In this document: piece by piece, positions 1 through 55,650 of the stretch
Numbering within the stretch: the first letter of the stretch is position 1
Layout: each line of letters begins with the position of its first letter
Assembly: GCA_947561715.1 (NCBI GenBank)
Contig: OX387198.1
Coordinates: 5,332,001 to 5,396,000, forward strand
Source: Ascidia mentula
Taxonomy: Eukaryota > Chordata > Ascidiacea > Phlebobranchia > Ascidiidae
DNA length: 64,000 bases
Direction of reading: 5' to 3'
Notes under the pieces: model-generated
What the model was told of the DNA's origin: nothing
The model's database searches: none
Seen by the model: the letters and a program-made list of their open reading frames with translations, nothing else
Program-made: the position numbers and the translations under genes

Positions 1-479
1 CAAGTTGTTTCGTTTCCCATGTTCCGTTTAACGTAAAAACCACACCAGGGGTTTGGTTCTGTGCTTGAATACTTTTCTATGTCTTGGTATGTAATTTCTT
101 TCTCTAAAAATGTGTATTTAGCGTTGATGTTTGGAATAAAAACATGTGAATTAACTTTGGTTTACCGTCTGGTAACGTAACGGTTGTTGAGCCTCTCCAA
201 CTATTATCCATTTTGTAATGTAGACTAAACGTAATTGCCACTATTGCATCATTTTTAATGTCTTTTGCACCAAGCATCCACACGCAAGATTCCAAATTAT
301 TGTGTGGTGCACTGTACACCAGGTAACCAAAAAATCCTGCGGCGTTTCGCGGACATGCTGCTCCCGTTGTACTCCATAAAATAACTGCAATAACAATTGT
401 ATTGTTAGTAAAATTACAATGTTCTGCTTTAAAATTGAACTTTTCTACCGAAGGTAATAAGTTGCTGTTGTGACATCAT
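1..479 (-). CDS. Type 1 array receptor, 5' part only (cut by the window edge)
   Basis: Only the first three exons are in the window. S is 449-479 (reads MMSQQQLITF, donor gtagaa). A is 166-384, starting after a TTGCAG acceptor with VILWSTTGAACP and carrying CVWMLGAKDIKNDAIVAI. B begins at 103 and runs off the left edge after WCGFYVKRNMGNETT. The signal peptide is completed across the S/A splice. The closest paralogue is the gene at 30494-31791, with matching flanks. The product should be a type I receptor, but stalk, membrane segment and tail lie outside. S and A lengths and phases match the complete paralogues, so nothing suggests it is broken. Confidence 0.72.
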
Positions 480-2641
480 TATTCAAATATTTCGTGTTTC
501 CCAAATCCTGGTAAGAAAAAGCAGCTAAGAATTTATAAAAATCTATCAACAAAATAAACCACGGTTTCAAATCAAAACCGAATCCATTGTTGATTGTGAA
601 AAAAAGCAACTACGCATATGAACAAAATGCAACAGATATAAAATGGCATGGCGCACCAATAAAACCATAAAGGTTGTCGAGTCAGGCGCCCATGTAAAGG
701 CGATCTGACGAAGAATAACCGTCTGCTGTAAAATCGCAGCAAGTCGCACCGTAGGCGGTGATGGGTTGCAACAAGCCGCATATTTCAACTATAATGCAAC
801 AGGTTTCCACCCAAAATGTCTGGGTCCTACTATGTAGTAATGTTGCTTGCAATCCAATTGATAAACTGACGTATGCGAAGTGCAATATACCTAATTTTAC
901 ACCATGTTTTATACTTTTACTCTGTTCAGTACAACTGTTTTCCGAACACACACCAAAGTTTTAGCTTCACAGCAGAATAGATGGCTGCGTGTCACCCATC
1001 CATAACGTCCTGTTTGGCCCCAATGTATTTACTGCTTCTTCTAACTTAAGCAAAGTTTAACCATTCTCTCTGCAACAATTTCCCATCCAATGACTGCCTT
1101 TTGACCTATCGTGAATACATTCTAAATACAAATCTATACTATATCAGTTAACGAGAACCACCTAACGACCACCTTTCCTCAACCGTTTGTGTTATTATGC
1201 GCTAATGTAGGCACAGAAACTACTAAGTAACTGTGGACAAATTTATACACGACAACAAATTTATACACGACGGTTCGCATCTATAGTTGTTTTTCTTTAA
1301 AACACCACAGTGCTCTTTAAAGCGAACAGAAAAGCGTAATGCCCTATAGTTCGCATAAATAACATACATAATTTCTACATCATGTGTGTTCTTATAAAAT
1401 GGCCCAACCTCATTCAGATACAAGCAAACTTTATCCAATTTCTCCGCAGAGAAAATAACTGTACTATTCCTAGACTTATCCCAACGTTTCGGACATTTCA
1501 ACGCAAATCTTCAGTTGATTACGCTCATACTTTATCAATGATTCAATTTGCAGAATGGCAGCCTTTGCTGAAAAAGCTCAAACCCTTCCGCCAACCCTCT
1601 CTTACTGAACCCGTGAAGATCATTAGTCTTGTCACTTTATGTTGCTTGCGCTTACACTCTCAGCATATCCTGATAATAACGTGGTACTAAACAGGTCATA
1701 GAATATTCGCATATGTAAATAGCAGTAAAAGGTCTCATCCAAACGAAAATAAATGTGGAGTCTATGAATAACAAATGACATGTTGTTTGCTCTGGACAAA
1801 AAAAAAACGAAAAATCTCAGCTGTCCAACTGACCCCCCACAAAAAATTCGCATGTCGTGTTGTTTGTGTTGTTATTGATTGGAACCTGTCTTGTCTGCTT
1901 CCACGCGCGCACGCATTTCACACGAGAGGTAGATCACGCGCCACTAGATAGAGAAATCGTATATGGTACCAAATAATAACTCTATTTCATTTTTCCCTGG
2001 TGAATGGTACTCTGTATCAGCAAAATGTTATGTTTGAATTCGAACGAATGCAAAAGACTTTATAGTCGTCCATACTCTCTAAGTTTTTACCTATTAGTTA
2101 TCAATGAAAGCCCGAATCTATATTTCGGAATAGTTCATTGCAACGAAATGCGAAAAAGCCCCCCAGCAGTATTATTTGACCGTGTTCTCCGTATTGTGCG
2201 TCTAAATCCACATTTTCTATCACAAGATGCATTTTATTGTAAGGCAATCACAGTTCATGACTGAGGCTAAATACACATGACATAGATTTTCGAAGCATCC
2301 ATGTTTTTTCAATCCATGTAAATCAAACATGCGTAATAAATACACGAAAGGCAAGCACGACAATGGTTTCGCAAGGACAAAAAACTCACCGCCAAGTTTG
2401 TTTTGTTAATAAGACGTTCGTTTCCGTCTGCAACTAATAACATTTCGTCACCTATAAGTAATATTTTAACACTTAGAAGAAATAAGAATACATGAATCGT
2501 AATTACATCCCTGAGTGTATACAGTCACGTGTTTAAATATAGATGTCTTATCAGCAGAGAATCATAAATAACAATTTGACAATAAAAAAGCGCTTGGTTT
2601 CTGGCATATGGAATGCACATCCTTAAGTAAAGCACGACATT
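480..2641. repeat. Duplicated intergenic block between type 1 and type 2 receptors (copy 1)
   Basis: No receptor exons on either strand. The block recurs nearly intact at 7466-9732 and 21879-24150, and its first part again at 31792-33050. Short plus-strand open frames (around 1382-1690 and 2004-2264) are shared between copies, but that is expected from recent duplication and they show no domain or start context I trust. This is a useful stretch for dating the duplications. Confidence 0.7.
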
Positions 2642-4196
2642 TCAGCTCATATGGTAAAGCTCATTGTTGACAGTTTGTTTGGTTTGACCCGAGTGATAGA
2701 TTTGGTTGTCAACCATTTCTCTTTCCTGTTCAGCCAAGGCGAGGTTACCGCTCAATCCTGTATTATAGTTGTGGGTTTTATGAAGGTGTTCCTCACCATC
2801 TGGTGATTTTTCCTTCTTTGATCTACAAGACATAGCACGTTTTTTTTGTTGACTTCATAACATCACAGCAAATCAGTGTATTAGATGCATGCCACTATAT
2901 TTCATACTTTGTGCAACCTCTAGTTTAACCTATGGTTTCTAAATTTGTATGGGTCCGTGGACTACATGGTCAATATAGTAAACTCTGTGGATCCCCATCT
3001 CCTGCAAATGTTTTGACAACCTTTTTGGTGATCTACGTATGCAAAAAGACCTTCTTCACTTAAAATAACACTGATTGAAAAAGTCCTGTGTGCCCCAGCG
3101 ATATATGGGTACTTTAAGGTACAGTAACCCGCGGTTGAGAAGCCCTGTACAAACCCCTTTCTGGGTAGCAACACAGCAATTCCTTGTATTGTTGTTACAC
3201 AAAAGATATATTGCAAACTTCTAACCTGTTTCTGATCAGTAACACAGCAATAATAATGATTGTCATAACTAGCAGTAAACCGAGAGTTATTGCTGCAATC
3301 ATTGAGTCGTTCTCTCTTTCTTTTCTCGTAATGAGTGATTTGTTGCTCTGTGTTGTTACGACAGTTGTTGTGTGGGATACGTTTGCAGGTATGGCCGAAA
3401 CGTTTGTTCGTTCTGAAACAAATTGGTTCAAATATTGTGAGTCAAGTTATTTATTACCGAATCGTTTGGTTCGTTTTAAGGTTTCTCGAATTAATTTGAT
3501 TTGTAAGGAAATAATTTGTATTCACTGAGCTACTTGCCTGTTGGTATCACAGCGTTCATTGTTGTTGTTGGTTTTATAAGGTTGTCTGTACATGGAATAA
3601 CTGCATACGTTAGATCTGTGTGTGTGTTTTTCATGTGAGAGGTCATGCGAGGTGGCCATGTTTTGCTTACCACCGAGACGTGCTGGTTGCGACAAGCGTC
3701 TTTTACTGCAATTCCTGGTGCGCAAGTTGTTTCGTTTCCCAAGTTCTGTTTAACGTACAAACCACACCAGGGGTTTGGTTCGCTGGGCGTAGGACTTGTT
3801 ATGGCATCTCCAATTATTGTTTTCCCTGAAATGTTGAAATAATAAATGAGATGTAATATTGACGAAGAAAACACTTAATTACCTTTTGGTAGCGTAACGA
3901 CTGCTGAAGCTTCCTTCCCGTTACTGATGTTATAATGTCTTGAGAATTTAATAGCTACCATTACGTCGCTTTTAATGTCTTTTGCTCCGAGCACCCATAC
4001 ACAGGTTTGTATGCTATATTTCAGTTCCCAATACCGTATGTAGCCAAACAACCCTGTGGCGTTTCGTGGACATTTTGCTTCCGTTGAGCTCCACAAAAAA
4101 ATAACTGCAAAAACGATTGTATTGTTACACATCTGCAGCGTTGTAACGAAGTTATTTTATCCTACCGAAAGTAATAAGCCAAATTTGTGCAAACAT
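2642..4196 (-). CDS. Type 2 array receptor, complete, about 302 aa
   Basis: Exons in transcription order: S 4166-4196 (MFAQIWLITF), A 3883-4104 (VIFLWSSTEAKCPRN, CVWVLGAKDIKSDVMVAI), B 3538-3825 (WCGLYVKQNLGNETTC, then CRN, then WPPRM), T 3226-3412, C 2642-2822. Phases 1-1-1-2 keep one frame throughout. The B exon ends in a GC donor (ACAG/gcaagt). T encodes a Thr-rich stalk and one hydrophobic segment (MIAAITLGLLLVMTIIIIAVLL) followed by basic residues. The tail ends MVDNQIYHSGQTKQTVNNEL then YHMS, with two N-x-x-Y tyrosines. Predicted type I plasma-membrane receptor; the ligand is unknown. Sister copies lie at 24151-25696 and 9733-10985. Confidence 0.78.
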
Positions 4197-5385
4197 CGGT
4201 CAACTGTTTGAGTTGCTTAAAACCTAAACATCGAAGAATTGACCTTTATACACAAGAAAGAGAAAGAAAATTTTAACACGCCATGATTTCAACGACAGCA
4301 ATACAACAGAATTCTGAAGAAAGAAATTACCCAACGAATTGGTAAACTGACATTCTTTACGGTAGTATTGCCATTACTTAGGGCCCACAAAAGTAAATGC
4401 AGCAAGTGAGGCGCACGGCCAATACAACTCTATATGGGGAACCCATAGATATCAAGGGGGGAGTTAAATGGTAAAGACTAAGTTACCACCACTATGTGCT
4501 GTTCTACACGCTGCAGAAAATTTGGATTCAATAATTCATGCGTCTCTAGATAACAAGACATAATTCGAGTTGAATGGTGCAAAAACAAGAAGGAAACGTC
4601 ATGAACAAAGTGTTACTCACTGCACGTGTACACAGTAATTGTACATTATTTACTAAATATGTACAAAATTGTTGACAGGGTTTTTTTCAGATTATTTATA
4701 ACATAGGATGTGTAAATATACCGTAGTCACATATTTATAAGTTAATTAGGGTCTCTACTAGACATAAATCACGGATGTATTTATGCAGGAAAGTATGGGT
4801 CTAACACAGCACGACTAACTTAACTACCATACGACAAAGGTTTCTAACTGTATCATGCACATGTGTCCACAACTACACCTGGCATATGCAACCCAAAACT
4901 TCAACTGCAAAACGGATATGACTTTTCTAAGATATCGACACAGCACAAGACAAGGCATTTAACTCCATGTACTGCTTTGTTTTGGCAGGTACACTAGCAA
5001 AAAAGTTATAAAAACGGTGTATGTCAGAAAGAGTTGACCTTCTATATTAAATTTCCTGGTAGTTGCAAACAAAAGACCCTACGCTGTCTTCCTCTGCGTA
5101 CTTCCGTTGAATGATTTCTCCTAGCTCAGCAGGTTGATGATAGTCTATAGGGCATACGATCTATTCAATGATTGATGCGGTTTTTATGCTTATACAGAAA
5201 GCTACAGCCTTAGCAGCATGTTACTTTCACAGCATATAGCCTAGTCTTTAAAGTGTGAAACTATACATACTCGTTCTTATGGTTTGTATGTTGCGGCACA
5301 ACTGAAACAAAAAGTACAAACAACGAAGTATTAGGCAAATTGACGCATGGTTTCGGTGATGCAGTTTCTTTCGTCGACGTGAAAA
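4197..5385. other. Intergenic, no gene seen
   Basis: No exon of the receptor family and no convincing open frame. The stretch at about 5080-5300 is homologous to 13470-13600 and 26330-26540, so it belongs to the same duplicated block. Confidence 0.6.
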
Positions 5386-5648
5386 TGGCAATCGTAAGAA
5401 TTACGTCAGTTGCAATATTTTCCTGGCCAAGTATCCATGTACATTTGTCATGATGATACTTGTGGTATTCTATTGAACCATTATTGTTGACGACATCACC
5501 CGGACATCAATCACAAACTCCACAAACAAAAATAAACCAGAGAAAATTTTGTTTGTTGGAGCAAGAGAAATACATGCTTATAAATACAGGTCGATACTAT
5601 CCCTTACCACAAAGAACTAAGATGATGTAGTTCGCTGTATCTTGCATC
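5386..5648 (-). pseudogene. Relic of a type 3 receptor: S and A exons only
   Basis: On the minus strand an S-like exon near 5610-5648 reads MQDTANYIILVLC before a gtaagg donor. An A-like stretch at about 5386-5517 is very close to the A exon at 29563-29748 (same CTWILGQENIATDVIL type). A TGA sits just before the first CP pair, replacing the Gly of the paralogue, and the 3' end of A diverges. No B, T or C exon follows before 4197. It is the leftover of a deleted type 3 gene between the first type 2 gene and the next type 1 gene, exactly where the other units have their type 3 copies. Confidence 0.62.
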
Positions 5649-5659
5649 GCACTTTTATG

Positions 5660-6186: not shown

Positions 6187-7465
6187 TCAGCTCATATGGT
6201 AAAGCTCATTGTGGACAGTTTGTTTACTTTGACCCGAGTCATAAATTTGGTTGTCAACCATTTCTCTTTCCTGATCAGCCAAGGCATAAGGATTTTCGTG
6301 GTTAGCGTTGGTTCCCGTTGTTCGGTCGTGGGTTTCAGGCAGCTGTTCATTGCCTGGCAGATTTTTCTTTTTTGATCTACAAAACATTTGTTTACCGTTG
6401 GTCCTCGCATGATTGGTAAAATTGCAACGTTTATTTCGATATTTCGTCGTTTTATTTGGATTGTTGATTTAAACTTTGCAAACCTCTAACCTCATTTTCA
6501 TCAGTAACACAGCAATAATAATGATAGCCACAACCAACAATGAGCCAAGAGTTATTTCTGCAATCATTGCTGCTTTTCCATCATTAATCTGAATGGCAGC
6601 ATTGAAGGTTTCTGTCTTTGCAGTGGTTGATGTGCCTGAATCGACTGTTCCGTTTGCAGGTAGAAGTTGGGATGATGAATTTGTAACAAAGTGAGTCATG
6701 GTACTTTGGCCCCCTTGTGTGGTTGTTTGTTCTGGATTAAATTGTTTGATACAAGTTGTATTATTTATTCTTGATTTATTGTTGATCAACCATATGACTT
6801 GCCTGTTGATACCGCTTCGGTCTTCGTTGTTGTCGGTTGGATAAGATTGTCTTTGCTGCACGGAAAAACTGCGTATGATAGAACTGTGTATGTGTATTTC
6901 ATTTTGAAGATGAAGATTGGTGGCCAAGTCTTGCTTTCTACAGTATAGACCTTCTGGTTGCGACAAGCATCCAACATTGGAATTCTTGTTCCACAAGTTG
7001 TTTCGTTTCCCATGTTTCGTTTGACGTACAAACCACACCATGGGTTTGGTTCTGTACTTGAAAACATTTTTATATCTTGGTATGTAATTTCCTTCTCTAA
7101 AAATGTGTGATTGGCGTTGATGTTTTTAATAAAACCACGTAAGTTAACTTTGGTTTACCGTCAGCCAATATAACGTTTGATGTGCTTTCCCAACCAATTT
7201 TGTAATGTAAGCTAAACGTAATTGCCACTATTGCATCATTTTTTATATCTTTTGCACCAAGCATCCACACACAAGTTTCCAAATTATTTTCTGGGGAAAG
7301 GTACAGCAGAGAACCAAACAATCCTGTGGCGTTTTGTGGACATGCTGCTCCCGCTGTGTTCCATAAAATAACTGCAATAACAATTGCATTGTTACAAAAC
7401 TGTAGTATTTTGCTTTGACATTGAGCTTTTTTACCGAAAGTAATAAGTTGCTGTTGTGACATCAT
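6187..7465 (-). CDS. Type 1 array receptor, complete, about 322 aa
   Basis: Exons: S 7435-7465 (MMSQQQLITF), A 7159-7371 (VILWNTAGAACPQN, CVWMLGAKDIKNDAIVAI), B 6803-7096 (WCGLYVKRNMGNETTC, CRNQ, WPP), T 6491-6731, C 6187-6376. Phases 1-1-1-2. The B donor is GC (ACAG/gcaagt). The B exon differs from sisters after WPP (IFIF in place of IMTS). The stalk is rich in Thr, Ser and Asn with N-glycosylation sites. The membrane segment reads ITLGSLLVVAIIIIAVLL. The tail has ENP, then MVDNQIYDSGQSKQTVHNEL then YHMS. Single-pass cell-surface receptor by architecture; ligand unknown. Confidence 0.78.
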
Positions 7466-9732: not shown

Positions 9733-10985
9733 TCAGCTCATATGGTAAAGCTCATTGTTGACGGTTTGTTTGGTTTGACCCGAGTGATAGATTTGGTTGT
9801 CAACCATTTCTCTTTCCTGTTCAGCCAAGGCGAGGTTACCGCTCAATCCTGTATTTTGGTTGTGGGTTTTATGAAGGTGTTCCTCACCATCTGGTGATTT
9901 TTCCTTCATTGATCTACAACACATTGCACGTTTTTTTTGTTGACTTCACAACATCACAGCAAATCAGTGTATTATATGCATGCCACTATATTTCATACTT
10001 TGTGCAACTTCTAGTTTAACCTATGGTTTCTAAATTTGTATGGGTCCGTGAACTACATGGTCAATATAGTAAACTCTGTGGATCCCCATCTCCTGCAAAA
10101 GTTTTGACAACCTTTTTGGTGATCTACGTATGCAAAAAGACCTTTTTCACTTAAAACAACACTGATTGAAAAAGTCCTGTGCGCCCCAGCGATTTATGGG
10201 TACTTTAAGGTACAGTAACCCGCGGTTGAGAAGCCCTGTACAAACCCCTTTCTGGCTAGCAACACAGCAATTGCTTGTATTGTTGTTGCACAAAAGATAT
10301 ATTGCAAACTTCTAACCTGTTTCTCATCAGTAACACAGCAATAATAATGATTGTCATAACTAGTAGTAAACCGAGAGTTGTTGCTGCAATCATTGAGTCG
10401 TTCTCTCTTTCTTTTCCCTTAATGAGTGATTTGTTGCTCTGTGTTGTTACCACAGTTGTTGTGTGGGATACGTTTGCCGGTATGGCCGAAACGTTTGTTC
10501 GTTCTGAAACAAATTGGTTCAAATAATATGAGTCTAGTTATTTATTGACGAATCGTTTGGTTCGTTTTAAGGTTTCTCGAATTAATTTGATTTGTAAGGA
10601 AATAATTTGTATTCACTGAGCTACTTGCCTGTTGGTATCACAGCCTTCATTGTTGTTGTTGGTTGTATAAGGTGTCCCGTGCATGGAATAACTGCATACG
10701 TTAGATCTGTGTGTGTGTTTTTCATGTGAGAGGTCATGCGAGGTGGCCATGTTTCGCTTACCACCGAGACGTGCTTGTTGCGACAAGCGTCTTTTACTGA
10801 AATTCCTGGTGCGCAAGTTGTTTCGTTTCCAAAGTTCTGTTTAACGAACAAACCACACCAGGGGTTCGGTTCGCTGGGCGTAGGGCGCGATATGGCGTCT
10901 CCATTTCTTGTTTTCCCTGAAATGTTGAAATAATAAATGAGATGTAATATTAACGAAGAAAACACGTAATTACCGTTTGGTAGCT
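9733..10985 (-). pseudogene. Type 2 receptor missing S and nearly all of A
   Basis: C (9733-9913), T (10317-10503) and B (10629-10916) are intact and in phase with the sister genes: the tail ends in MVDNQIYHSGQTKQTVNNEL, B has WCGLFVKQNFGNETTC and WPPRM, and B uses the GC donor. Upstream, only the last dozen bases of exon A remain (10974-10985). The sequence then changes to the Ty3/gypsy insertion region. S, the signal peptide, most of A and the promoter are gone, along with about 1 kb that the sister locus (25382-26370) still has. Probably non-functional unless a new first exon from the inserted DNA is used. Confidence 0.75.
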
Positions 10986-11217
10986 TAAGAATGATAAAAC
11001 GATAAAACTGGCCGAACAGTAGAAACCTCTGGTGCTAACATACTGCACGATTTTTAGCGTCTAACTATGTCTTTTCTGTTTATTTTGTTTGTAGAACTGA
11101 AGATGCTTTAATAAAAAGCGAAACATGTTTTCTAAAACCAGAAGCGTGGACACAAAGTTGTTCTAGTAACATTTAAAATTGAATTGATGGTTAACTTGTG
11201 TCACGTGAAAGAAGTGC

Positions 11218-12730
11218 TGCTGGTTAGGTAGATTTCATGAAGTAAAAACATTTTATTGCTACAACTGTGGTGTACGTGGCCATATGGCAAGAGATTGTTG
11301 TCGACCACGCGGTGGCGATAGGACGTTCAAATCCATACCTTTTAGACCAAGTCAACAACCCACATCGCAGGTGGTGAACATAGCCCAGCAAAGACCGACA
11401 CTGCCATTCCGGGCCAACACTTCTTACGGCACACACGGTCGCCGCAACGGTAGAGGAGAAGTTTATTCCTTGGACTTGCGTCGCTCCATTGGACTGTCAT
11501 ATGAGGAAATATTTAAAGCCCAACACGACGATCCCGAAATTTCCCCGGCTTTCAGGTGGTTAAACCTTGGCAAGAGGCCACCTTACAGAACTGTTAGGTC
11601 TGCCTCGACGACGACCAAGCACCTTTGGGGTCAATTCGGGCGATTAATCGTTCAAAACAACTTGTTGTATCAAAAAAGTGAAATCTTACATCAACCGGGC
11701 GCGTGTGTGTACCGTTTTATCACTCCACAAACCACTAGAGAAATGATTATGTCCGTTCTGCACGACGCACCACTTGACGGTGGCCATCTCGGGATGGCAA
11801 AAACCTGTTCGAAGATCGAAGAAAGACACTTCTGGCCCGGCTGGAGGCCCGACGTGGAGGCTTATGTCCGTTCCTGTCGCCACTGCCAAAGAAGTAAGAA
11901 GTTTACAGCAAGGCCCCGTGCTCCGTTGGTTCCTTCCGGGGAGATGCAACCAATGGAGCGGGTCGAGGTGGACATAATGGGGCCACTCCCGGCGGCCTCC
12001 AGTGGTAATCAATACGTATTGGTTGCATGCGACATATTCACTAAATACGTGCGCGCATGGCCACTCAGGACGCAAAGGGCAGAAGACGTAGCCGGGACAA
12101 TGTTTCATCGTTGGTTTACGGTACACGGCGTCCCGGACGTAATCCATTCCGATCAAGGTGCAAACTTTGAATCTATTTTATTTAAAGAGCTAGCACGGTT
12201 GATGGGCTGCCAAAAGACCCGGACGACCGCGTATCATCCGCAAGGAAACGGTGCGTGCGAACGCAACAACCGAACAATACTCTCCATGATACGGAATTAC
12301 GTGCAGCGCGATGAACGGTGCTGGGATGAGGCGCTGTCGGCGGTGGTCGCCGCCTATAATGCGATTGTCCATGAAAGTACAGGTGTGTCACCACATTATT
12401 TGTTAAATGGCCACGCTCTACGACTCCCAGCAGATTTATTCGGTGCTCCCGCCCAGCGCGATCCATTCCCGGCACCACTGGAAGGTCTACGCGCTAGGTG
12501 AGACGTTGCGGAAACAAAGACGGCGCATGGCGTCGCAGTACGACCGACATAAGAGGGGCAAACCGCTGAATGTGGGTGATTTTGTTCTCTTAACAGACCC
12601 CGCGGTGAAGCCAGGGATGGCGAGGAAATTCCACCTTCCGTTCAAAGGCCCGTACAAAGTGGTGGACATCAAGTCAGCCGTGACGTAGGAGATCGAGGAC
12701 GAAGAAGGACACCGAAAAGTCGTCCATCAT
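11218..12730 (+). pseudogene. Degenerate gag zinc knuckle - integrase frame of the gypsy element
   Basis: The frame is open through the zinc knuckle to 12501 and contains the HHCC motif (H-x-GHLGMAKT to CRHCQRSK), VDIMGPLP and CDIFTKYVRAWP for the first Asp region, IHSDQGANFES for the second and HPQGNGACERNNR for the Glu. A frameshift near 12480-12500 moves the C-terminal part (MASQYDRHKRGKPLNVGDFV, KFHLPFKGPYKVVDIKS) to another frame, and a TAG stop follows at about 12686. The Gag-type motif lies directly upstream of integrase, so an internal deletion has removed the rest of pol. Confidence 0.82.
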
Positions 12731-14270: not shown

Positions 14271-15210
14271 AGTAGCATTACGACTGTCCAGTATAGATTG
14301 TCAACCATTTATCTCTTCAACTCATCAGAAATGTATGAGTTGGTGGCTTTTTCATTAAAATTGTTTTGCATTGAGTTTTTGAACCAGTTTTTAATCTTCG
14401 ACATTTAAAGCCGATATTTTTTGTGTTATGCACTTCCCTAAACAAATTGATACTGCCAAAATGTCCTTTATTAAAAAACATGACCAATGCAACATACTAG
14501 CAATACACCAAGGGATATTGCTGAAGTGCCCGGATGTTTGTTACGGCATCATCATTCCCTTGAAGAAATGAAATTATTGTGTTGGTTGTATCCAATATCA
14601 TGTTACGAAGTCATAAAATTAATAGGTAACATTAAAAATACCGCTATACCTTTGTTAGTAGTTGGTTGTGTTGTATTAATGGCAGATGTAACAGAAAAAG
14701 CAAAGTTTCCGAAGCATCTATGTTCTTCATATTCCACTTTCAAATCCATGCTCCTTGAATTAGTTTTCATGACCGGTGGCCAGTCATTACTTACAGTTGG
14801 GGTTGGATTGTTTCTACAACCGGTGCGAAATGGAATGCTGGGCTTGCAAGATTTTTCATTGCCCGAGTTTACGTACGATCTACACCGACACCAGGGTTTG
14901 TTGTAATATCTTTCATTGGACAAATTGTGATCCTCGAATGAATCGCCTTCAGAAAATCATAACTTTGACACTGCTTGTTAAATAAACCACAAACATCTAC
15001 CATTCGGCAGTGTTCCAGTTCCATGGCCTCCCGTCGTGCTGTAGTAATTTTCAAACCTTACAATTATTACGTCAGTTGGTCTAGTTTCCCTGCCAAATAT
15101 CCATGTGCATTTTTCATATTCATAGGTGGGAGAATAATGAGCTATTCCACCCCCTGATGCTGCTGGCAAGCCTCTGGAATCCTTCATAGTCAACTGCCAA
15201 AGTCAACAGT
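14271..15210 (-). pseudogene. Degenerate type 3-like receptor
   Basis: B (14650-14946) is open: NKPWCRCRSYVNSGNEKSCK, then CRNN, then WPPVM. A (15001 to about 15208) carries EYEKCTWIFGRETRPTDVII, but relative to the copy at 27928-28119 it has one extra G in a run near its 5' end, so the splice phase used by the family leads to a stop. The membrane exon (about 14480-14600) and tail (about 14280-14330, only a fragment of the MVDN-Y motif after an in-frame TAA) are decayed. No good signal-peptide exon was found. Paralogue of the pseudogene at 27190-28210. Confidence 0.66.
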
Positions 15211-16896: not shown

Positions 16897-18069
16897 TTAT
16901 GATGTATGATATATCTCGTTGTAAACAGTCTGTTTGGTTTCATTTCCAGAGCCGTAGATTTCATTGTTAACCATTCCTCTTCCGGACCCACCGACGATGT
17001 GTGAGTTGGTATTGCCATTTTCCTCCGCTGAGTTGATGTAACTGTTTTTATTCCTTAAACTTTAAGTAATGATAAATGATGCTGTGTATTTCCTTTAAAC
17101 GATGTGATTCTACCAACTGGTTCAAAGATCTCACCTTAATTTAAAAGCAAGAATTCCGATTCCGATAAGTGCAATTATTAGCAATACACCAAGTGATAAT
17201 GCTGCGGTAAACGAATCGCTGAAGCTTTGCCACATATTTTTATAATCTGGATCTTGGTTCAATAATGTTGTTGTATTGGTTGTAGCCAATGTCACGTTGT
17301 TGACGATGGATGTTTGTCTGTTTTGATACTGAAATTCTGTAAAAAATGTAGTTACATTATTAATTTTGGAAGTGGTCAATCTTGAAAATTATCGCAATAC
17401 CTTTTGCTGTAGTAACGATTGGCTGTGTTGTTTTTATAGCAGTTGTTATAGAAAAAACGTGGTTTTCGGGGCATTGGGATATTTGGTATTTTAGCCTGAT
17501 ACGAAAGTTCCCAGCAATGGTTTTCATCACCGGTGGCCATTGATTACTTATAGTTGTGTTTGGATTATTCCTGCAAGAGGTGGGAAGTGGAATATCGGGT
17601 TTGCAGGTTTTTTCACTCCCTGAGTTACTTTTTACGTACAATCCACACCAAGGTTGGGTGGAAGAGCTGTATCTGTACAAATTCTGATCCCCGGGTGCAC
17701 CACCTTGTGGAAAAAATTTATGTTGGCACTACCCTTAAAAAACTACAGACAATTACCGTTTGGCAAAGTTACTTTTGATTCACCACCATCCCATCTGTAG
17801 TACCGCAAAAAGGTAATCTTAACAATTGCGTTAGATTCGATATTTTCCTGGCCAAGTATCCATGTACATTTTTCTTGTTCATACGCGTAGTAATCTTTTG
17901 AACCTCCGTTGTTGACGACATCACCCGGACATCCATCACAAACTTCCAGAATAAAAAGTAAACCTAAAAAACGAGATTTTTTAATTGAACAGCGTACATG
18001 CTGGTACAAGCAACAATACTGCTCACCACAGAAAATTGTAAAGGTGTGCTTAGCTTTATTTTGCATCAT
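16897..18069 (-). CDS. Type 3 array receptor, complete, about 305 aa
   Basis: Exons: S 18027-18069 (MMQNKAKHTFTIFC), A 17757-17963 (LLFILEVCDGCPGD, CTWILGQENIESNAIVKI), B 17401-17703 (WCGLYVKSNSGSEKTCK, CRNN, WPPVM), T 17135-17336, C 16897-17059. Phases 1-1-1-2; all donors GT. The stalk has several N-x-T sites. The membrane segment is ALSLGVLLIIALIGIGILAF. The tail ends MVNNEIYGSGNETKQTVYNE then IYHTS, so its second half also contains a Y-x-x-I pattern. It is the only complete type 3 copy: the others (5.4, 14.3, 27.2 and 28.7 kb) carry lesions. Confidence 0.78.
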
Positions 18070-19358: not shown

Positions 19359-19521
19359 CCACAGAGAACCAATCAATCCTTTGGCGTTTTGTGGACATGT
19401 TGCTCCCGTTGTGCTCCATAAAATAACTGCAATAACAGTTGTATTGTTAATAAAATTTCAATGTTTTGCTTTAACATTGAGCTTCTCTACCGAAGGTAAT
19501 AAGTTGTTGTTGTGACATCAT
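19359..19521 (-). pseudogene. Relic of a type 1 receptor: S exon and 5' part of A
   Basis: S at 19491-19521 is intact (MMSQQQLITF, donor gtagag). The A acceptor at 19426 and the start of A (VILWSTTGATCPQN) are intact. The similarity then stops at about 19359 after roughly 20 codons. The rest of A, and B, T and C, are missing. A truncated duplication end, placed next to the full type 1 gene at 20596-21878. Confidence 0.7.
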
Positions 19522-34755: not shown

Positions 34756-34806
34756 GAGCTAATATGGTAAAGCTCATTGTGGACAATTTGTTTAGTTTGT
34801 CTCAGA
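34756..34806 (-). pseudogene. Isolated relic of a receptor tail exon
   Basis: The minus strand reads RQTKQIVHNELYHIS, the second half of the type 1/2 tail. The first tyrosine motif and the rest of the exon are absent and no other exon is near. It marks the right end of the duplicated half of the array, where a fourth type 2-like copy would be expected. Confidence 0.62.
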
Positions 34807-42585: not shown

Positions 42586-43970
42586 CTAAGTATCTAGGTT
42601 GTAGATTTCGTTCGCAACAGTTTCAGAGCGAAAATGCATAGCCACCATGCTCTGCAATGCAGGCTCCGGATTAACAACGACAGGTTGCCGCTTTTGACTT
42701 GCCATCAACTTTCTGTCAATCAAGACCACAGCTTAGAACAAAATATGAGTTTGAAATAGGCAACTGTTATTTACCTTATGTTGATGACCAGAAACACATT
42801 AATCAATACTAACAGAAATAGTATCGCTCCCAGTATGATTGATAAGACGTTTAAACGGTTTCCTTTCACCACTGCCTTGTCTGGTGCTATCTTTACAGTT
42901 TCATTGTATACTGTAGTCGTTTCAGTTCCCCGGTTGCGACTTGTTTCTATGAGCAACAATAATGTGTCTTTAGGTCTATACTTCATTTCTAAATAGTTTT
43001 GCGCATTTTCTTGCTTCGCAATTGGAATACTAGTTATGCATATAATAACCATAGTAACGTCATAGAGATTTTACGACTATTTACCTGCATCTGTTTTAAC
43101 TGTAGTTGTGACGTGAACCTGTTTTTTCTGTAAAGGGAACAACTTTGTCCCGCGGCATTCAAGATACGTTGTGAAAAGCTTAATTGCCCATAATTTAAAA
43201 TGTGTTGTGATGCGAGGTGGCCATTCGTTGCTCTCTGTAGTTTTGGTTTTATTGCCACATCCACCGATGGAGAAGGACATTCCTGATTTGCAAGTAGCTT
43301 CCTTGGAGTTTGCTTTCTTCACATACAGAAAGCAAAATGACTCGGACGACCGACCTTTCACTCCTTGAATGATTTTTCCTACGTTTATGAAAATAAACAA
43401 TAACAACTAGTATCTGTAAGCATGGCACAGTCCGCTAAGCAGTATTGTAGAACCCTTGGCAAGAAAATTAAGATTTCGTGCAGCTAACATTATTTACCCA
43501 TTTTAGCCTGACTTGGATATTTGATTTTCCACTTTCCATATTTTTTAGTTTATGTAAAGTTAAAATTAGAACTGCTTTGCTTTGTTAAATTAGAAGAACT
43601 AGTAAGCATCTGTCCATCGAAGATCTTAGAGACCAAACTAAGGAGATTTAGTGTTTCCTATGGCTGCGGGGGCCTATATATGGTTATGATATTATTTACA
43701 TGTATCTAGCAAATCTTATACAATTAGCATACCATCAGGTAAGTGTATAGTGCACGAACTGTTTTCTCTCTCCCTTACATAAAAAGAATTAATCATCACA
43801 AACACTACAATGTCGCTCCGGTTGTTTTTCCCCAACTGATAGTTGCAGCTTTCATTTACGTGGTCTATTTCCTGATAAGACTGCACACCATAGTTTTGAG
43901 TGTCACCAGGACAAAATGCAGATACGTAGAACGTGAAGCAACCGATAAAAATTGTCGCCCTCAAAAGCAT
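42586..43970 (-). CDS. Divergent array receptor with a one-tyrosine tail, about 276 aa
   Basis: S and A are merged in one exon, 43733-43970 (MLLRATIFIGCFTFYVSA, then FCPGD, CNYQLGKNNRSDIVVFV); an ATG farther up at 44042 is also in frame. B 43085-43378 has FCFLYVKKANSKEATCK (Phe in place of the usual Trp), CGN and WPPRI. T 42775-42946 has a hydrophobic stretch LSIILGAILFLLVLINVFLV. C 42586-42712 ends SETVANEIYNLDT: only the first N-x-x-Y unit remains and the second is gone. Phases 1-1-2. Confidence 0.7.
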
Positions 43971-44393: not shown

Positions 44394-45496
44394 TCAAGAC
44401 GCATGATATAGGACATTATTAGCGGCTTGCTTGCTTTGATTCGCCACCACGGTGTCATAAATTTCGTTTTCCATCATTCGCTTCTCCGGATTCGATAACC
44501 CTTCGTCGCGATCAGTCCTCATCGTTTTGGTTTTTGATCTGTTAGGACAATTAGCGCGTAACTAAAATCCAAGTGGCCATTTTCTTCAAACTTGGGCTAC
44601 TATGCCATGTGTTGAATGTTGGGTTAAAATGAATGTGTTTATTTGCACTGTGCACGGTTTGTGTTACCTTTGCTTCAGCAGTAACGTCGTAATTGCGCTG
44701 AAAGCTACCAGTAGTAGTACCGCCAACACGATGACAGCAACTGTTGAAACTGATACTTTTGATAGATTGTCCACATCACCTGTGGTAGTATCGCTAGCGT
44801 CTGATGAAAAAGTTTACTGTTTATAGAAACAATATTAGCATGCCAACAAAAACATTTGTTACATTTTTGAGCAATAACCACCTGTTGACTCTTTGTCTGC
44901 ACACTCGTAAAAGGCGTGGGCAACTCTTATACTGGTTCGTTTTAAATGTATATTTAGGCGCGGTGGCCATTGTTGACTGGTTGCTATTATTGGTTTGTTG
45001 CTGCATTGAACTGGAAATGTTCTGCCAGGATTAAACGTTGTCTTCAATCCTCGCCCTTTCTTTACATAGAAACCACACCAAGGATCTGCAGTGGACCAAT
45101 ACGGCCTCTGCGCTACGGAGTAGTTAAGTTGTTTACCTTAAAGAGAACACGGTGGTTTTATCATTAGATCCTTCCCTGTTGTATAACCTTACCATCTGGC
45201 AGAATACCAACAGCAAATGAGAATGTAATATTCTTTTTGTAGAATTCCAGAATCATGATTGACAGAACAGCGTCCGCGGAAAGGTTTTGCGATCCAAACT
45301 TAACAGTGCAGTTTGCTAGTTGATTTCTTTGCCGATAGTTGAAATAACCGAAATTTGTGTTCGTGTCGCTAGGACAGACCGCGCTTGTAGACAAATATAG
45401 CGGAAAGCCTGAAATTAAAGTTTGGTGTTGTGTAAATCAAAGTATATCGTACACCTGACTCTGCTTACCATAGGCAGCTGCAATCCAAGCCGACAT
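44394..45496 (-). CDS. Divergent array receptor, about 258 aa
   Basis: Exons: S 45469-45496 (MSAWIAAAY), A 45193-45408 (VCPSDTNTNFGYF, CTVKFGSQNLSADAVLSI), B 44882-45136 (WCGFYVKKGRGLKTTFNPG, CSN, WPPRL), T 44668-44800, C 44394-44538. Phases 1-1-1-2. The second conserved cysteine of B is Phe here and the Trp after C in A is Val, so one disulphide of the family is probably missing. The membrane segment is VSTVAVIVLAVLLLVAFSAI. The tail has MMENEIYDTVVANQSKQAAN then NVLYHAS, both N-x-x-Y units kept. Confidence 0.72.
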
Positions 45497-46033: not shown

Positions 46034-47440
46034 CTATAAATTGTACAGCTCGTTGTTCACTGTTTGTTTTGTTTCATCCACAGCCGTCGTGCCGTATATG
46101 ACGTTGTTCACCATTCCTCTTCCTGGTAGCTCGTGGTCTGTGTAAAGATTATTTTGTTGTTCACTCGCTCCACCCCCTCTGTTGTTTGAGGAAGATTCAG
46201 TAACATCTCTTTTCAGTGTTCTGCGAATTCCATCACAATATAAACGCATGTAAAGCACAGAACATGAATTTCGTTTGAAAGATTTTTAAAACACTCTTCT
46301 ACAGTTGACAAAATAAACAACCTGTTGGCAAAATTTTATTTGGCCAAATATTTAAATAATAGAACATGATAGCAACCTAAAAACATTACGACCTATCATA
46401 AAAGTCACCTCATTTTTGCAAGTAGGACCAAAATTGAACACATGGCGACTAAAAGCAAAGCAGCCAAGGTTACAGCCAGAATCACAAAAAGATCAGCATG
46501 GTTTGTAATCGTGCTTTGGTTCATTACTTCACCCCGAAGTGTAACTGCAAAGAACTATGTAAGCCTTTGTGCGACCAAACCTACTGATTTTGACATTTGT
46601 TACCAGCTGTTGAAGTTGCTGGCAAAAACGTTTCATTTTTTGGGCATTCCAAAAACACGAAAACAAGTTTTAAAATCCAGTTCCGCATCGTTGTTGTCAT
46701 ACGTGGTGGCCAATGCTTGCTTTCTGTTGTATGCGGATTATTGTAACATTTGTTAGGGATGGTTACACCAGACTTACACGCTGTTTCGGAATTGTTACTT
46801 CGCTTCACATAAAGTCCACACCAGGAATTTCCATTTACCTGTGTGAGGTTCTCAATAACCATCGGTTGGCCTAAAATTAACATTGTTTTTAATCTAAGAA
46901 ATTTCTTTATTTTTACAAAAATGCACACTGTTTTGGTCGCTTGGATGAAGCTTAATGTAATGTCGGGGATTATTTTAGCCGCTTAACCTCGGTTTACACG
47001 ATTCTGAACGTTGCCATTATTAAATGTACCCGAATACACTACAAAAATTTATGTCTACACTTCTACATTTCTACACTTTCAATGGAAATATACTCAGTGG
47101 AAATGGCGTCGTATTGTGTCTTTTCATACGAACAATGCGTCGCACACTACAAAGCTCTTATACCATCAGGTAGCAATCCGCTGGGAAATATACGACGCTG
47201 GCTCCTTTCTCTTTTCCGAAATACATCAAATTTAATGAATAAAATAACATCTGGTCTTAGATATTGCTCTCCAAGCGACCAAGTACAGTTCATTGTTTCG
47301 TTTTTGATGTTGTAATGGATTAAACCCAACGTCTCTGTCACATTGCTCGGACAAGATGCTTCACCTTTCGCAAGAAACATCACCAAACCTACAAAACACA
47401 GCAACAATCTCAGCATGGAACATACGTTAAGTTTTTCCAT
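46034..47440 (-). CDS. Array receptor, about 288 aa
   Basis: The first exon 47164-47440 holds signal peptide and A together (MLRLLLCFVGLVMFLAKG, ASCPSN, CTWSLGEQYLRPDVILFI); a second ATG at 47416 would also serve. B 46604-46870 (WCGLYVKRSNNSETACK, CYNN, WPPRM), T 46409-46544 (short stalk; LFVILAVTLAALLLVAMCSI), C 46034-46220. Phases 1-1-2. The tail ends GRGMVNNVIYGTTAVDETKQ then TVNNELYNL, both tyrosine units kept. The T acceptor was chosen as the one giving an open frame. Confidence 0.73.
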
Positions 47441-48101
47441 CAGTTCCCTCACCGCAGGTCAAAGTTGTAGTCCATATGTACATATTTGCTGCTAGTCCAC
47501 AAAACAAAAGCTGTACAAAAGCTGTAAAGTCCACAAAATCATCTGTATGTTGCTACAGGCCTGCAACACGTAGTCTTTCAACACACTAATGCACGTAGGC
47601 AGCAACAAAAATCAACATTGCGTCTCTCCGCCTGGTTTATTTAGACATTCCTAATTTAAAAAAAAAATTTCGATCCTACATTAATTCATAGAAGTACTTC
47701 AAACGTTTGCCGGAGCCGGTTACATAACTCACGGACCTATTTCACTCGGCGCGACCCAGTGTTTGTTAACCCCTGATCTAAACAGAAAATCCTCATAGCA
47801 CTCAATATTTAGGACAAAAGACAATGACTAACACGGAGCATGTACGCGTCCTTTTTGCCAGGGGAATTTTATGTTTTCTAGCCAGCGCTAAAATCAACTC
47901 ACGCGAAACTGTTTTGCATCACGGGACAAGGGGAAATCCCCACGTGAGTTTCAAAAGGTTTCACGCAACCTTTCATATGAACACCAAATAATGATTAAAA
48001 CATGAACGGTGCTGTAAAGTTAAGTGTTGACCCCATTTTTGTCGTTCAATAAAGCAAACAAACATTAATCTTCATAGTCATCCGTTTGGTTGCTATTACT
48101 T
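47441..48101. other. Intergenic, no gene seen
   Basis: A short stretch at about 47755-47782 (CAGTGTTTGTTAACCCCTG) resembles a hAT-type terminal repeat. No exon detected. Confidence 0.4.
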
Positions 48102-49842
48102 CTATGTAAGCTGTGCACTGTACAGCTCATTGTTCACAGTTTGTTTGGTTTGATCCGCAGCGGTAGAGTCGTAAATTCTGTTCTTCACCATTTCTCTTCC
48201 GGGTTCGGCGAATGTGTAGATGTGCCCCTGCTGATCTCGATTTGCGTTGCGTTCGATTTCTGCAACTTGATTATAACTTTTGTTTGCCGATGCATCGTTT
48301 AGTGTTCTGCAGAAAACAACAAAAGATATTTTTAAGAGTCTCCCCACCGGAAAATATGCTCTAACCCAGTGATTCCCAAACTTTTTGTGGTTGCGCAACA
48401 CTTCGAGGTAAAATAATTTCGACGCGTACCACCTAGTTGAATGTTACAAAGTAACTTAGTGGATGAAGTAACAAACATTTTGTAATCACTTCCGATTTTT
48501 TAAATTCGAACTATATCCGCAAACTAATGAAAGGTGCTCGATACCACCTGTAATGCCGTCGCGTACCAGCACCGGTTGGGAAACACTTCTCTTATCCCAT
48601 ACAACAATTTAACTGTTTGTACAGTTTGCGTTGTACTTTATTTGTCCTGATGAAGGTCAGTTCAATAACGACCGAAACGTCGCCCGAATAGGTTTTTCTT
48701 TTTTGCCAGAAGAGCCTTACATTACCAAATTAAACTGTTTGTATTGGGTTCTAAAAGTTATGGATTTTTTTGTCGAGTAAGTTACATGGAAACTCAGCCT
48801 ACCTTTGTTTGAATACCAGAACGAGAATTACAAATAGCGAAGCAAGAAGAAAAACTGCGAGGATTACAGCTGCAACCAATACAGGATCGAAACCGGGATC
48901 TTCATTAGCTTTGTTGGTATTTTGATCTCCATACACAGTTGTACTTGCTTTTGTTGTACTCCTGCTGTTGTCGTATTTACTGGTCGCTTGTACGCTAGTC
49001 CGCAAATCTGCTCGAAATAATTGACAACATAATTGTTCAAATGCTCGACCCATATACCAAGGAGAAAACCTGATCGCGATTAATGGCTAGAATAACGAAT
49101 CTCGATGTGGTAATATACGAATTGCTTCTGGTAGCTCACGTTGGTAATAAGGTGTAAAAAAAACACAATATAATTCCAGTATACCTTGAGTGCTTGGGAC
49201 GCTGGTCCAATTCGTATGTATTTGGTTGCTGGGGCATTTCAAAAAAGCATACGCTAGGTTTGTATACCATTGCCGTAGTTCTGTTTCCATCTTAGGAGGC
49301 CAACTCTCGCTCTCCACTGTGACTGGTTTGTTTCTACATTGATTGGGAATCTCGAATCCACTTCTACAGGTCGTTTCATTGCCCTGATTCTTTTTGACAT
49401 AAAATCCGCACCACGGTTTGGTTGAAGAAAAGTCGGTTTGTGTCACATTCTTAATCCACAATGTGTTTCCTGCAATGTTCCAATAAAGTGTTGCTTTTCA
49501 AATGCAAAAAGTTTGTATCGAATAATGACATCCTTACCATCGGGAAGCCTGCCTTGTGCTTCAGGGTCAGCCTTATTTTGTCTTGCTCGGTATTCTATAA
49601 ACATGACTGTCAAAACGACGTCACTTGGTAAACTTTGACTTCCGAAAGTCCACGTGCAGTTCGTTTTAACCTCGCGCTGTCTGTAGTACACGGCGCCGAA
49701 AGTTGCTGTTAAATTTTTAGGGCAATCGCCGCGAACCAACGCACTCGAAAAAACACCTGAAACAAAATCTTGGGTATGACTTGAATCGGAATTAAGGCAT
49801 ATTTTCCTCACCACAGACAAACACAGCAACCCAAGCGGTCAT
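48102..49842 (-). CDS. Array receptor, about 314 aa
   Basis: Exons: S 49812-49842 (MTAWVAVFVC), A 49538-49756 (DCPKNLTATFGAVYY, CTWTFGSQSLPSDVVLTV), B 49185-49469 (WCGFYVKKNQGNETTC, CRNK, WPPKM), T 48803-49007 (Thr/Ser stalk; VLVAAVILAVFLLASLFVIL), C 48102-48306. Phases 1-1-1-2 with consensus sites. It keeps the six cysteines and both Trp of the family and so is a good reference member. The tail is GREMVKNRIYDSTAADQTKQ then TVNNELYSAQLT. Transposon-like and ribozyme-like sequence lies in its T-C intron. Confidence 0.77.
48366..48590. mobile_element. Possible hAT-like MITE in the intron of the 48.1-49.8 kb gene
   Basis: The left end CAGTGATTCCCAAACTTTTT has the typical hAT-type sequence. At the right, GGTTGGGAAACACTTC is roughly its inverse. 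No coding frame and no clean 8-bp duplication could be defined. Confidence 0.4.
48646..48681 (+). ncRNA. Hammerhead-like motif of the minimal Penelope-type (relic)
   Basis: CTGATGA (48647-48653), a stem II of GGTC/GACC enclosing a loop, then GAAA and CGTC. This CTGATGA...CGAAACGTC pattern is that of the minimal hammerhead variants described for Penelope-like retroelements, where stem III is only about one pair. No clear stem I is visible, so activity is doubtful. Confidence 0.42.
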
Positions 49843-52036: not shown

Positions 52037-53323
52037 TTACATATTGTACAGTACGTTATGGACAATTTCTTTTTCTTGTGTTACAGCATTGGAATCATAG
52101 ATTGGATTGGGAACAATTTTCCTTGGTTGAGTGACAGACGAACTTTCCTTATCTTTGCTGCTGCAGTTTGCTGTTCCTGCTTTCTTACTGTAAAAACAAT
52201 AATCTTGAACTTCTTTTTTTGGTAATAACGCTGACATACGAAATTTAATTGGCGGGTACGCGTAGCTGCATCAGGTAAGTGTGGTTATAATTCTGTACCT
52301 GTTTAACCTGTAGAGTAGTACATTGCATGCCAGGGATATGAGAAGTAAACAAGACAGCAGAATTGCGGCAATCTTTGACTGCTCCAAACCGGTGCTGACA
52401 GCAAGGTAGGCCGGTGTGTTTGCGGTCGTGGGCTTTATTTGTTCTATTCCCACAGCAGGTAGTTATTGAGAGTTTTTACAGAAACCAAGTGTTCAGGTGG
52501 CGTTTAACACAATACACAATAACACACAAAAACACTGTCATAAACATATAGCGTGCTTAGCCCAAACTAATTTAAGGCTTCTTCTCACATTTGCCGTGAT
52601 TTTTTTTAATTTTTTAAGTGTCGGCTATAACAACACCTTGAATCAGAACCATGGTATTAAACGCAAGATTATTTTTCTCGCTGCACCTCTGTAACAAGAA
52701 ATTTGAAGGGATTTCTTACCTGGGCATTTCACGTACTTGTATTCAACAAGTATCATCCAGTTTTTCATTGTAGTTTGCATCTGAGGTGGCCAATCCAAAC
52801 TAACCTTTGCTACTGCTGTGTTTCGGCAAGTGTCGTTCAGAGTGACACCAGGGGCACATGTGGTTTCCCTTCCTTCGTTTGATTTTACATAGAGCCCACA
52901 CCATGGTTTGTTTTGGCTCCACGTCGGTTGGCGTTCAGTTGTTAACTTTTCACCTTTACATTGGAAGTAACAATGGTTAGGCGCTTCGATAATCTATAAC
53001 GACAAGAAATAAACCCACTTACCATCAGGTAATGTTACAGTGTTCTGCCTATCAGGATACCGTATTTGCGTGTAGTAAATGAATTTAACAACCAGGATCC
53101 TGTCGCTGAATTGTTGTTCGTTCCCAAATCTCCAAGTGCAGTTTTTCGCTGTGTTTTGACTGCTAAACATGTAGCCGTACGTACCATTCCCGGGCGGTGG
53201 ACATTCGCTGACAGCACTTGTCACGGTATCTAAGGTTTAAAAAAAGGAGTTAAAATCCTCCAGAATATTTTGGAAACACTTACCGCAAACTAACAACAGA
53301 ATCAACCAATTCCCGGTGTGCAT
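52037..53323 (-). CDS. Array receptor with an NPxY motif in its tail, about 258 aa
   Basis: Exons: S 53284-53323 (MHTGNWLILLLVC), A 53023-53229 (CPPPGNGTYGYMF, CTWRFGNEQQFSDRILVV), B 52720-52953 (WCGLYVKSNEGRETTC, CRNT, WPPQM), T 52299-52443 (SKIAAILLSCLLLISLACNV), C 52037-52187. Phases 1-1-1-2, all consensus sites. The tail is KIVPNPIYDSNAVTQEKE then IVHNVLYNM: the first unit is a textbook NPxY, which suggests that N-x-x-Y is the functional core in the whole family. Closest relative is the frameshifted gene at 54186-55650. Confidence 0.77.
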
Positions 53324-53379
53324 CGTATTCAGAAGCAAATCTCAACAATTTTTCTCAGCATGCAGCAATTTCATACATA

Positions 53380-53512: not shown

Positions 53513-53526
53513 CAATTTCATACATA

Positions 53527-54185
53527 CACACTAACTACTAACTAAATGACTCCATGTTACGGTTTGGGCACCGGTAGTGCAAGGAGTATGTACTGCTGCG
53601 ATGACTCACTCTAGGAAGTACTTGGAATGTAACACATGAGTTCTGCCGTCAGACAACATGTGACGAACGTGAGAGTTAGCTATGAATTAGTCACTGTGTT
53701 TTTTGGATTACTGCGTAACGTCAATCCAAAGAAACCAGGGGAGCAAAATAACTCTTGTACGTGGTATTTTTGAAATGCTTGGGCTCGTAACCTTTATAGT
53801 TTGCTTTCGCCACGAAAAAGCGATATATCAATTGGTGTAGTTAATTACAAGTCTCCATATGAAAACAAATACATATTAGTGGATCTTGGTGATAAAATAA
53901 TAACCTATAATATGGTTTTATTTATAAATGGAATCGTTACTGATAACGAACCGTGAACTTTGATACGGTAATTAACTGCCAATCATACGAAAGAGAAACA
54001 GGTCCAGTACACGCGTTAATTTTACTCGTGCTAACGATTTCCCCAACTTCCGTCACGGAGTTAAGTGTTGTTTCACTTTACAAAAACGCAAAATTTTGAA
54101 GATGTACATACAGTGTGGTTTGCAACAAAAATCTGCAAATTTACAGCGATATAAATAAACATATTGTTTCTTATAGAAGCAGCAA
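53527..54185. other. Intergenic, no gene seen
   Basis: AT-rich, no supported exon on either strand. Confidence 0.45.
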
Positions 54186-55650
54186 TCACATGTGGTACAA
54201 ATCGTTGTAGACCGTTTGTTTTTCCTGTTTTGCAGCACCCGGTTTATAATTTTGGTTTTTTTACACATTTCTTGCTCAATCTGTTCAATTGTTCGTTACA
54301 ACCTTTGACTAGATGTTCGAATCCACTCAAAGAGGTAGAAAACTTCATAATTGTAAAAATGTTAAAAATAAAGTGCTCGGGATACCTGTTTAACTTGTAC
54401 AACAACGTATTTAATAGCAGGGATATGAAAAGTAAACAAGCCAGTACAATTGCAGCAATCGTCGGACCGCCTACTGCAGTACTTTGCGTTGACTGCTCCA
54501 AACCGGTGTTGGCTGTGGAGGAGGCAGGCGAGTTTGCTCTCGTAGGTGTTATCTTTTCTATATTCACAGGATGTCGTGAATAAAAGATGTTACAAAGATG
54601 AAATATACTTCTGCTTAATACAACAAATGTGCCAATCTTATGTAAGAAAAAAAATGCATTATGTTTTGCAACTAATTGAAAAATGCAGTAATATTTCATG
54701 CAATGGCATGATTGGCAGGATCGCCCCACTGCGCAGGTCCTTGCTTGGCGATCACAGCTTTCGTATCGCGATCATTAGGTTTGCAGGCTTGGTAGCCCAG
54801 TACAAAACTTACCGGAAGCTTGATTTTTCAAATCTCGCTCCGACTTGTCAGGAAAAAGTGGCTGATTCAGCTAGGCTGCAATGCCTGGTCTGCCAAGCCT
54901 GCAAAGCTAATTTAAGAATGTGTAGTATTTTTGCTGTGGTTTTTAAACTGGTATCGGATATTTTCAACAATACTTAAATTCAAGAAGCCAGCAGTATAAC
55001 GGCACCTATGTTACAAAGAGACTTTTACCTTGGCAATCCACGAACTTGTATTCAACAAGTATCATCGAGTTTTCCGTTGTAATTTGCATCCGAGGAGGCC
55101 AATCCAAACTAACCTTTGCTACTGCTGTGTTTCGGCAAGTGTCGTTCACGGTGACACCAGGGGCACATGTTGTTTCCCTACCTTGGTTTGATTTACATAG
55201 AGGCCACACCACGGTTTGTATGTGCTCCATATTGTTCGGAATTCAAATGATGAATTTATCCCTTCACATTAAAAGATAGACGTGTAGGTCGCTAACGTGC
55301 ACGTTACCCTTGCAAAAATTACACTTACCGTGAGGCAAAACTACAGACACGCTTTTTGGAGCAGAATTTTCTATATACATGTTGTAGATAGTTTTAACCA
55401 CAAGCATCCTGTCACTGCGCTGTTGATCGTTTCCAAATTTCCAAGCACAGGCTTGCAATTTGTTAGCCGGCACACTGCTCCACATGTAACCGTATGGAAC
55501 ATTCCCGGGTGGTGGACAACTACTGCTGGCAGCCATTCCAAATATACCTTAGAAGGATTAGCAAAAAAAGTTATATTCTGTAGCCACGTACGTACAATAC
55601 TTACCGCAAACCAACAACAAAATCCACCAAGTCTGGGTGACACTACACAT
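54186..55650 (-). pseudogene. Array receptor with two frameshifts in base runs
   Basis: S 55605-55650 (MCSVTQTWWILLLVC) and A 55329-55547 (CPPPGNVPYGYMW, CAWKFGNDQQRSDRMLVV) are intact. B 55029-55261 is 233 bp, one less than the sister gene: an A is missing right after WCGLYV, so the reading frame soon ends. T 54386-54557 (IAAIVLACLLFISLLLNTLL) is fine. In C (from 54186) a run of seven A separates the upstream frame from the conserved NQNYKPGAAKQEKQTVYNDL then YHM. All splice sites remain. Either a young pseudogene or errors in homopolymers of the assembly; both shifts being in A runs makes the second possible. Confidence 0.68.

Follow-up and report, generated by a model that had tools for sequence, protein, structure and literature searches.

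A tandem array of type I receptor genes with a probable CUB-like ectodomain and N-x-x-Y tails in the tunicate Ascidia mentula

The window analysed here, 64,000 nucleotides of the tunicate Ascidia mentula (contig OX387198.1, called C2 below; C2:5332001-5396000, in an assembly totalling 195.8 Mb), carries a tandem array of genes for predicted type I membrane receptors built on one plan of five exons, designated S-A-B-T-C. Fourteen genes are complete and another runs off the edge of the window, while five copies are broken and three persist as relics, all on one strand; these counts, first given in a sequence-only reading of the window, were borne out by exon scans and gene models, and every significant A and B exon found in the window by motif, tblastn and hidden Markov model (HMM) scans lies on the minus strand. 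The product of an intact gene is predicted to have about 258-363 residues and to comprise, in order, a signal peptide, an A+B domain with six cysteines, a Thr/Ser stalk, one membrane helix and a short tail. The part of the array inside the window spans 55 kb and forms the right end of an array of roughly 94 kb with 34 B-exon places, counting both intact genes and fragments; this main array continues ~39 kb leftward of the window, back to 5.293 Mb.

Gene models and extent of the family

The shared exon plan and the type I layout are supported by 13 spliced models, whose joins were inferred from the DNA alone. All 13 are in frame, all their introns are GT-AG or GC-AG and the intron phases are conserved (S-A 1, A-B 1, B-T 1, T-C 2). 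The S exon measures 28-43 nt, A 207-225 and B 234-303 (381 in g40), followed by T and C. Introns of the GC-AG type at the B-T junction are common to one subgroup of the array (g4, g7, g21, g25 and g31, as well as the broken g10).

The modelled complete genes, all on the minus strand and given in window numbering, are g4 (2642-4196), g7 (6187-7465; tail TVHNELY), g17 (16897-18069; tail TVYNEIY), g21 (20596-21878; tail TVYNELY), g25 (24151-25696), g31 (30494-31693), g37 (36194-37565), g40 (38604-40712; long Thr-rich stalk), g43 (42586-43970), g45 (44394-45496), g47 (46034-47483), g49 (48102-49842) and g53 (52037-53323; tail NPIY...HNVLY). The g31 model covers exons A-C, its S exon (MMSQQQQLITF) being located by eye just upstream, outside the model, while g43 has S and A fused into a single exon, the S-A intron missing, and one NxxY in its tail. 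The fourteenth gene (51431-50715), rightly singled out at the outset as a complete member without the A/B ectodomain, has a signal exon, a small four-cysteine exon in place of A and B (both by eye), a membrane exon at 51176-51038 and the tail NNQIY...TIYYDIY.

The remaining copies, likewise on the minus strand, are in various states of decay. The edge-cut gene (1-384) has A at 384-166, B extending to -162 and T from -262 to -502 in window numbering. Among the broken copies, g10 (9733-10916) has lost its A exon beside a retroelement; g15 (14650-15154) has a truncated A, and the exon scan lists no T or C exon for it; g28 (27577-28119) has a stop within B and a lost cysteine; g29 (28735-29767) has a membrane-exon frameshift (by eye) and has lost one cysteine; and g55 (54195-55547) has B split over two frames. 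The relics are an A exon at 5330-5506 (tblastn and HMM), another at 19350-19427 (HMM) and a tail exon at 34767-34799.

With the g49 B exon alone as query, tblastn reaches other window genes at expectation values (E) down to 7.5e-25, which excludes chance; the stronger HMM E-values concern sequences that were partly among those building the HMM. Genome-wide, the B-exon query finds 53 places at E <= 1. The main array accounts for 34 of them (19 inside the window or at its edge and 15 to its left), a second cluster at C2 5.92-5.96 Mb for 11 and a third at C2 5.68-5.69 Mb for three, with five single places on C1, C2, C67 (two) and C70. Reverse queries from both diverged clusters recover the main array, and the three clusters therefore form one family. 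The initial estimate of about 20 members thus holds for the window, and the whole family is much larger. On C1, one paralog (L031) retains A, B, membrane exon and tail (by eye). In a distant paralog at C67:20.54 Mb (L034, about 5540-4813, minus strand), an in-frame stop follows straight after the B match (by eye), which makes a secreted form probable.

Ectodomain and cytoplasmic tail

Known families were sought by sequence. In 12 proteins, no Pfam family scored above its own cut-off, and neither Ig nor sushi domains gave a match. Matches that stayed below the cut-offs included DUF4690 (19.4 bits, cut-off 30.7), which spans the stalk and membrane helix of g49, the SHP2-interacting membrane adaptor SIT (16.1, cut-off 27.6) in the membrane part of g53 and, in one paralog, the ML domain (13.0, cut-off 22.7). 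A sequence profile search of the PDB gave only five weak matches, all in the membrane region. A search of a protein database revealed no relative: one receptor model found none at E <= 10 and a ten-sequence receptor alignment none at E <= 1, a null result limited by the need of this search for shared 5-residue words. It is nevertheless informative because the same database holds Ciona and Clavelina proteins; as a positive control, another gene of the genome retrieved 31 relatives there, including Ciona and Clavelina ones, the best named relatives at 37-39% identity. A known family was accordingly rejected at the sequence level. No description of this receptor family was found in the open-access PMC literature (subscription papers and preprints lying outside that scope), and Rfam gave no match in the window at gathering scores.

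Ten aligned models confirm the six cysteines and the WC-x-[LF]-YVK and WPP-x-M signatures: C22, C44, C104, C128 and C162 are invariant and C118 nearly so, with two cysteines in A and four in B. In the structural matches of AlphaFold2 models of two different genes, CUB chains take rows 1-44 and 1-18, respectively, spermadhesins being among the matches (rows 7 and 22 of one list). Profile alignment with CUB places the first-half register C-x-W ... [LI]-x-DG in A; hhalign scored 22.2 against a maximum of 19.3 in 100 shuffles, and a second comparison gave 25.5 (P 5e-4), or 21.0 after trimming against a maximum of 20.3 in 100 shuffles. The second half of the ectodomain failed to align in hhalign. 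Pfam CUB (PF00431) gave no match at E up to 10 in the 12 proteins (HMMER filters drop most matches above 0.1), and a genome scan with PF00431 gave none inside the array among the matches listed (150 of 876 candidates scored).

The two AlphaFold2 models and the profile comparison indicate, with moderate strength, that the ectodomain is probably a CUB domain of divergent form, which escapes recognition by sequence. The claim that no named family has this combination stands for the sequence, but the fold is probably not a new one. Compared with CUB proteins (neuropilin a1/a2, MASP, C1r/s, spermadhesins, cubilin), the array shares the predicted beta-sandwich and, in the first half, C-x-W together with a pattern of strands that ends with DG. 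It differs in its signatures, in the lack of a Pfam CUB match, in combining a single domain with a short stalk and a signalling-type tail and in its six cysteines, CUB domains usually having four, in two disulfides. A shared intron was rejected as proof of CUB origin, the phase being 1 here and 0 in CUB. That the ectodomain is some other beta-sandwich (GOLD-, SIDT- or lectin-like), its CUB likeness being merely a common arrangement, seems unlikely given that CUB chains lead the lists for two different genes and that an independent profile alignment shows the CUB-like register in A.

The cytoplasmic tails were compared in a set of 24, namely 16 from the window, seven from its left and one on C1, which leaves aside g55, g28, g15, the other clusters, one identical duplicate and at least three left main-array tails (5310048, 5329380 and 5331215). 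Every tail has at least one N-x-x-Y and 21 of the 24 have two or more; shuffled tails reach two in a mean of 1.5 and a maximum of five of 24. As many tails were retrieved by a two-NxxY pattern, the count over the 14 complete window genes is fairer: 11 have at least two and three have a single one. Motifs of the N-x-x-Y type are read by PTB adaptors, and the canonical form NPxY occurs in only one of the 24 tails. The pattern Yxx[IL]x(6-12)Yxx[IL] of the immunoreceptor tyrosine-based activation motif (ITAM) matches none of them, and the ITAM receptor reading was rejected. The ‘twin-tyrosine tail’ of the sequence-only reading is thus right in that two motifs are usual; their type is N-x-x-Y (PTB-type), not ITAM.

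In ten of the 24 tails (four of the 14 complete window genes), a T-x-Y-x-x-[IL] motif, which resembles SH2 docking sites, overlaps the second N-x-x-Y; in the remaining 14, H, N, D or A takes the place of the corresponding tyrosine. The canonical immunoreceptor tyrosine-based inhibitory motif (ITIM) was rejected for these sites, since the search pattern also admitted T at -2 and all ten matches have T there (by eye). Close relatives diverge at this point, with TVYNELY in g21, TVHNELY in g7 and g31 and TVNNELY or TVDNELY elsewhere. In the 5.92-5.96 Mb cluster, whose B exons, where they match the g49 B exon, are only 28-41% identical to it, the tail is retained (RELVDNELYHNHQPTERQTVHNELYNA) and the change between TVYNELY and TVHNELY recurs.

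A tail search of the genome gave 31 matches. Outside the known clusters, inspection by eye showed that C70 has relic tail fragments embedded in repeats (10.687 Mb) and a weak match among similar repeats (3.52 Mb), that C1 has a broken copy (22.90 Mb) and that the C52 match looks like chance; a tail module common to other receptor families was rejected on these grounds. On another contig, duplicated relic tail exons (NNVIY...QTKQTV[HY]NELYGN) lie within repeats (L061, 4164-4964, plus strand).

Turnover of the copies and neighbouring elements

Averaged over the 66 pairs that 12 genes form, pairwise identity is 0.34 for A, 0.38 for B, 0.27 for T and 0.38 for C; the whole tail is therefore no more alike than the ectodomain, whereas the tail motifs are. 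Ratios of nonsynonymous to synonymous substitution rates (dN/dS) were computed for ten pairs. In the trio g7/g21/g31 they are 0.76-0.95 for A, 0.44-0.63 for B, 1.5-2.0 for T and 0.36-0.65 for C, in the pair g4/g25 they are 0.36-0.54 throughout, and the six older pairs stay at or below 0.87 wherever a ratio could be computed. This suggests loose constraint on A and the stalk in the g7/g21/g31 subgroup; strong positive or diversifying selection is left unproven by these pairs.

Identity between g7 and g21 is patchy: it reaches 98-100% in the tail but drops to 77-82% near the second half of A, and the maximum chi-square test places a breakpoint near 6598 (permutation p 0.0005; 0.04 and 0.07 for the other two site classes). 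Left of the window, a tandem duplication at C2:5295.2-5300.8 kb (L043/L044) carries family genes. The copies lie 5,388 bp from each other. From 5,295,200, their identity per 200-bp bin is 97-99.5%; from 5,296,000 it is 100% up to the final bin compared, 5,300,600. They reflect a very recent duplication or else an artefact of assembly. Birth-and-death with gene conversion is supported by the pseudogenes, the mosaic identity and the identical tandem copies, in agreement with the birth-and-death locus originally proposed.

Several other elements accompany the family. The retroelement beside g10 (11209-12501, plus strand) is an open reading frame with a CCHC knuckle, H2C2 and an rve integrase, which we take to be Ty3-like, in a stretch of raised G+C (0.44-0.46). 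The window also holds a tandem repeat at 56488-57175 (285-bp unit, 2.4 copies, 100% matches) and, next to the array, a Laminin-G/pentraxin-like exon at 58968-59270 (plus strand), which is under the Pfam cut-offs. Near the C1 family members (L064, 492-3409, plus strand), C-type lectin-like exons (by eye) are followed by a membrane segment and a long open reading frame rich in tyrosine motifs (NPLY, TYSEVK, NPYDEV). In the genome as a whole, glycosyl hydrolase 6 has two matches over the family cut-off (32.0 and 27.8 bits against 27); to our knowledge, this enzyme is known in animals only from tunicates, where it accompanies cellulose synthase.

Recognition role and comparable systems

The predicted anatomy is that of a surface receptor with a tyrosine-bearing tail, and a role in recognition is plausible. 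The favoured reading, to which a probability of roughly 0.6 can be given, is that of lineage-restricted CUB-like type I recognition receptors acting in engulfment or in allo- or pathogen recognition. The CUB-like domain would bind an external ligand (a self marker, a microbe, a dying cell or a gamete surface), clustering of the receptors would lead to tyrosine phosphorylation, and N-x-x-Y would recruit PTB adaptors of the GULP/CED-6, Dab or Shc type for uptake or signalling. Paralogs with T-x-Y-x-x-[LI] may gain an SH2-type docking site, the repertoire then perhaps holding two output classes, and copy turnover with gene conversion would renew ligand specificity. The ectodomain dN/dS does not rise above 1 in the ten pairs.

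A possible if somewhat improbable alternative is that these proteins are phagocytic or scavenger receptors in blood cells or the gut, having broad ligands, an NxxY that is mainly endocytic, as in the tails of CED-1/Draper/Megf10, and no self/non-self discrimination. The genes for Draper, CED-1 and Megf10 are not known to form tandem arrays. These engulfment receptors combine NPxY with YxxL or ITAM motifs and are read by PTB proteins such as CED-6 (PMC8092387). The array receptors resemble them in being single-pass with PTB-type tail motifs, some paralogs adding Y-x-x-[LI], and the alternative draws support from the PTB/endocytic type of NxxY and from the want of ITAMs in all 24 tails; its counterparts, however, have EMI/EGF-like ectodomains and canonical NPxY (PMC8092387), while the array has one CUB-like domain and that form of the motif in a single tail. 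Gamete recognition or self-sterility receptors, on sperm or egg and under birth-and-death, would fit the copy turnover and a CUB-like fold with spermadhesins among its structural matches, but are distinctly improbable in view of conserved tail tyrosine motifs, which are more typical of immune and uptake receptors.

For the favoured recognition receptors, the mammalian KIR/LILR clusters offer a parallel in their tandem birth-and-death array and in tail motifs that vary among close paralogs, and differ in having Ig domains and ITIMs; the human KIR/LILR loci are polymorphic. A tentative and rather doubtful extension is that this unnamed, lineage-restricted tunicate CUB-like repertoire contains a one-base output switch, a change at the tail tyrosine adding or removing the SH2-type site T-x-Y-x-x-[LI], while the N-x-x-Y overlapping it stays constant. 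If true, the array would supply a germline-encoded set of recognition receptors with two outputs, a CUB-scaffold analogue of KIR/LILR or FcoR.

The nearest tunicate repertoire found is fester/FcoR of Botryllus, whose Ig/sushi receptors form the best-studied tunicate recognition repertoire (PMC12065747). Fester and FcoR have Ig and sushi domains, FcoR having an ITIM or hemITAM; they are likewise clustered multigene receptors under birth-and-death, with FcoR tyrosine motifs varying between loci (PMC12065747). The array described here differs in its one CUB-like domain, twin NxxY and ITAM-free tails. Tunicates form the sister group of the vertebrates. In another tunicate, an extensive CUB-like array whose genes duplicate and decay and whose PTB-type tails are conserved would mean that a different ectodomain scaffold has been recruited for such a repertoire, and makes the genes of the array candidate allorecognition, pathogen or engulfment receptors.
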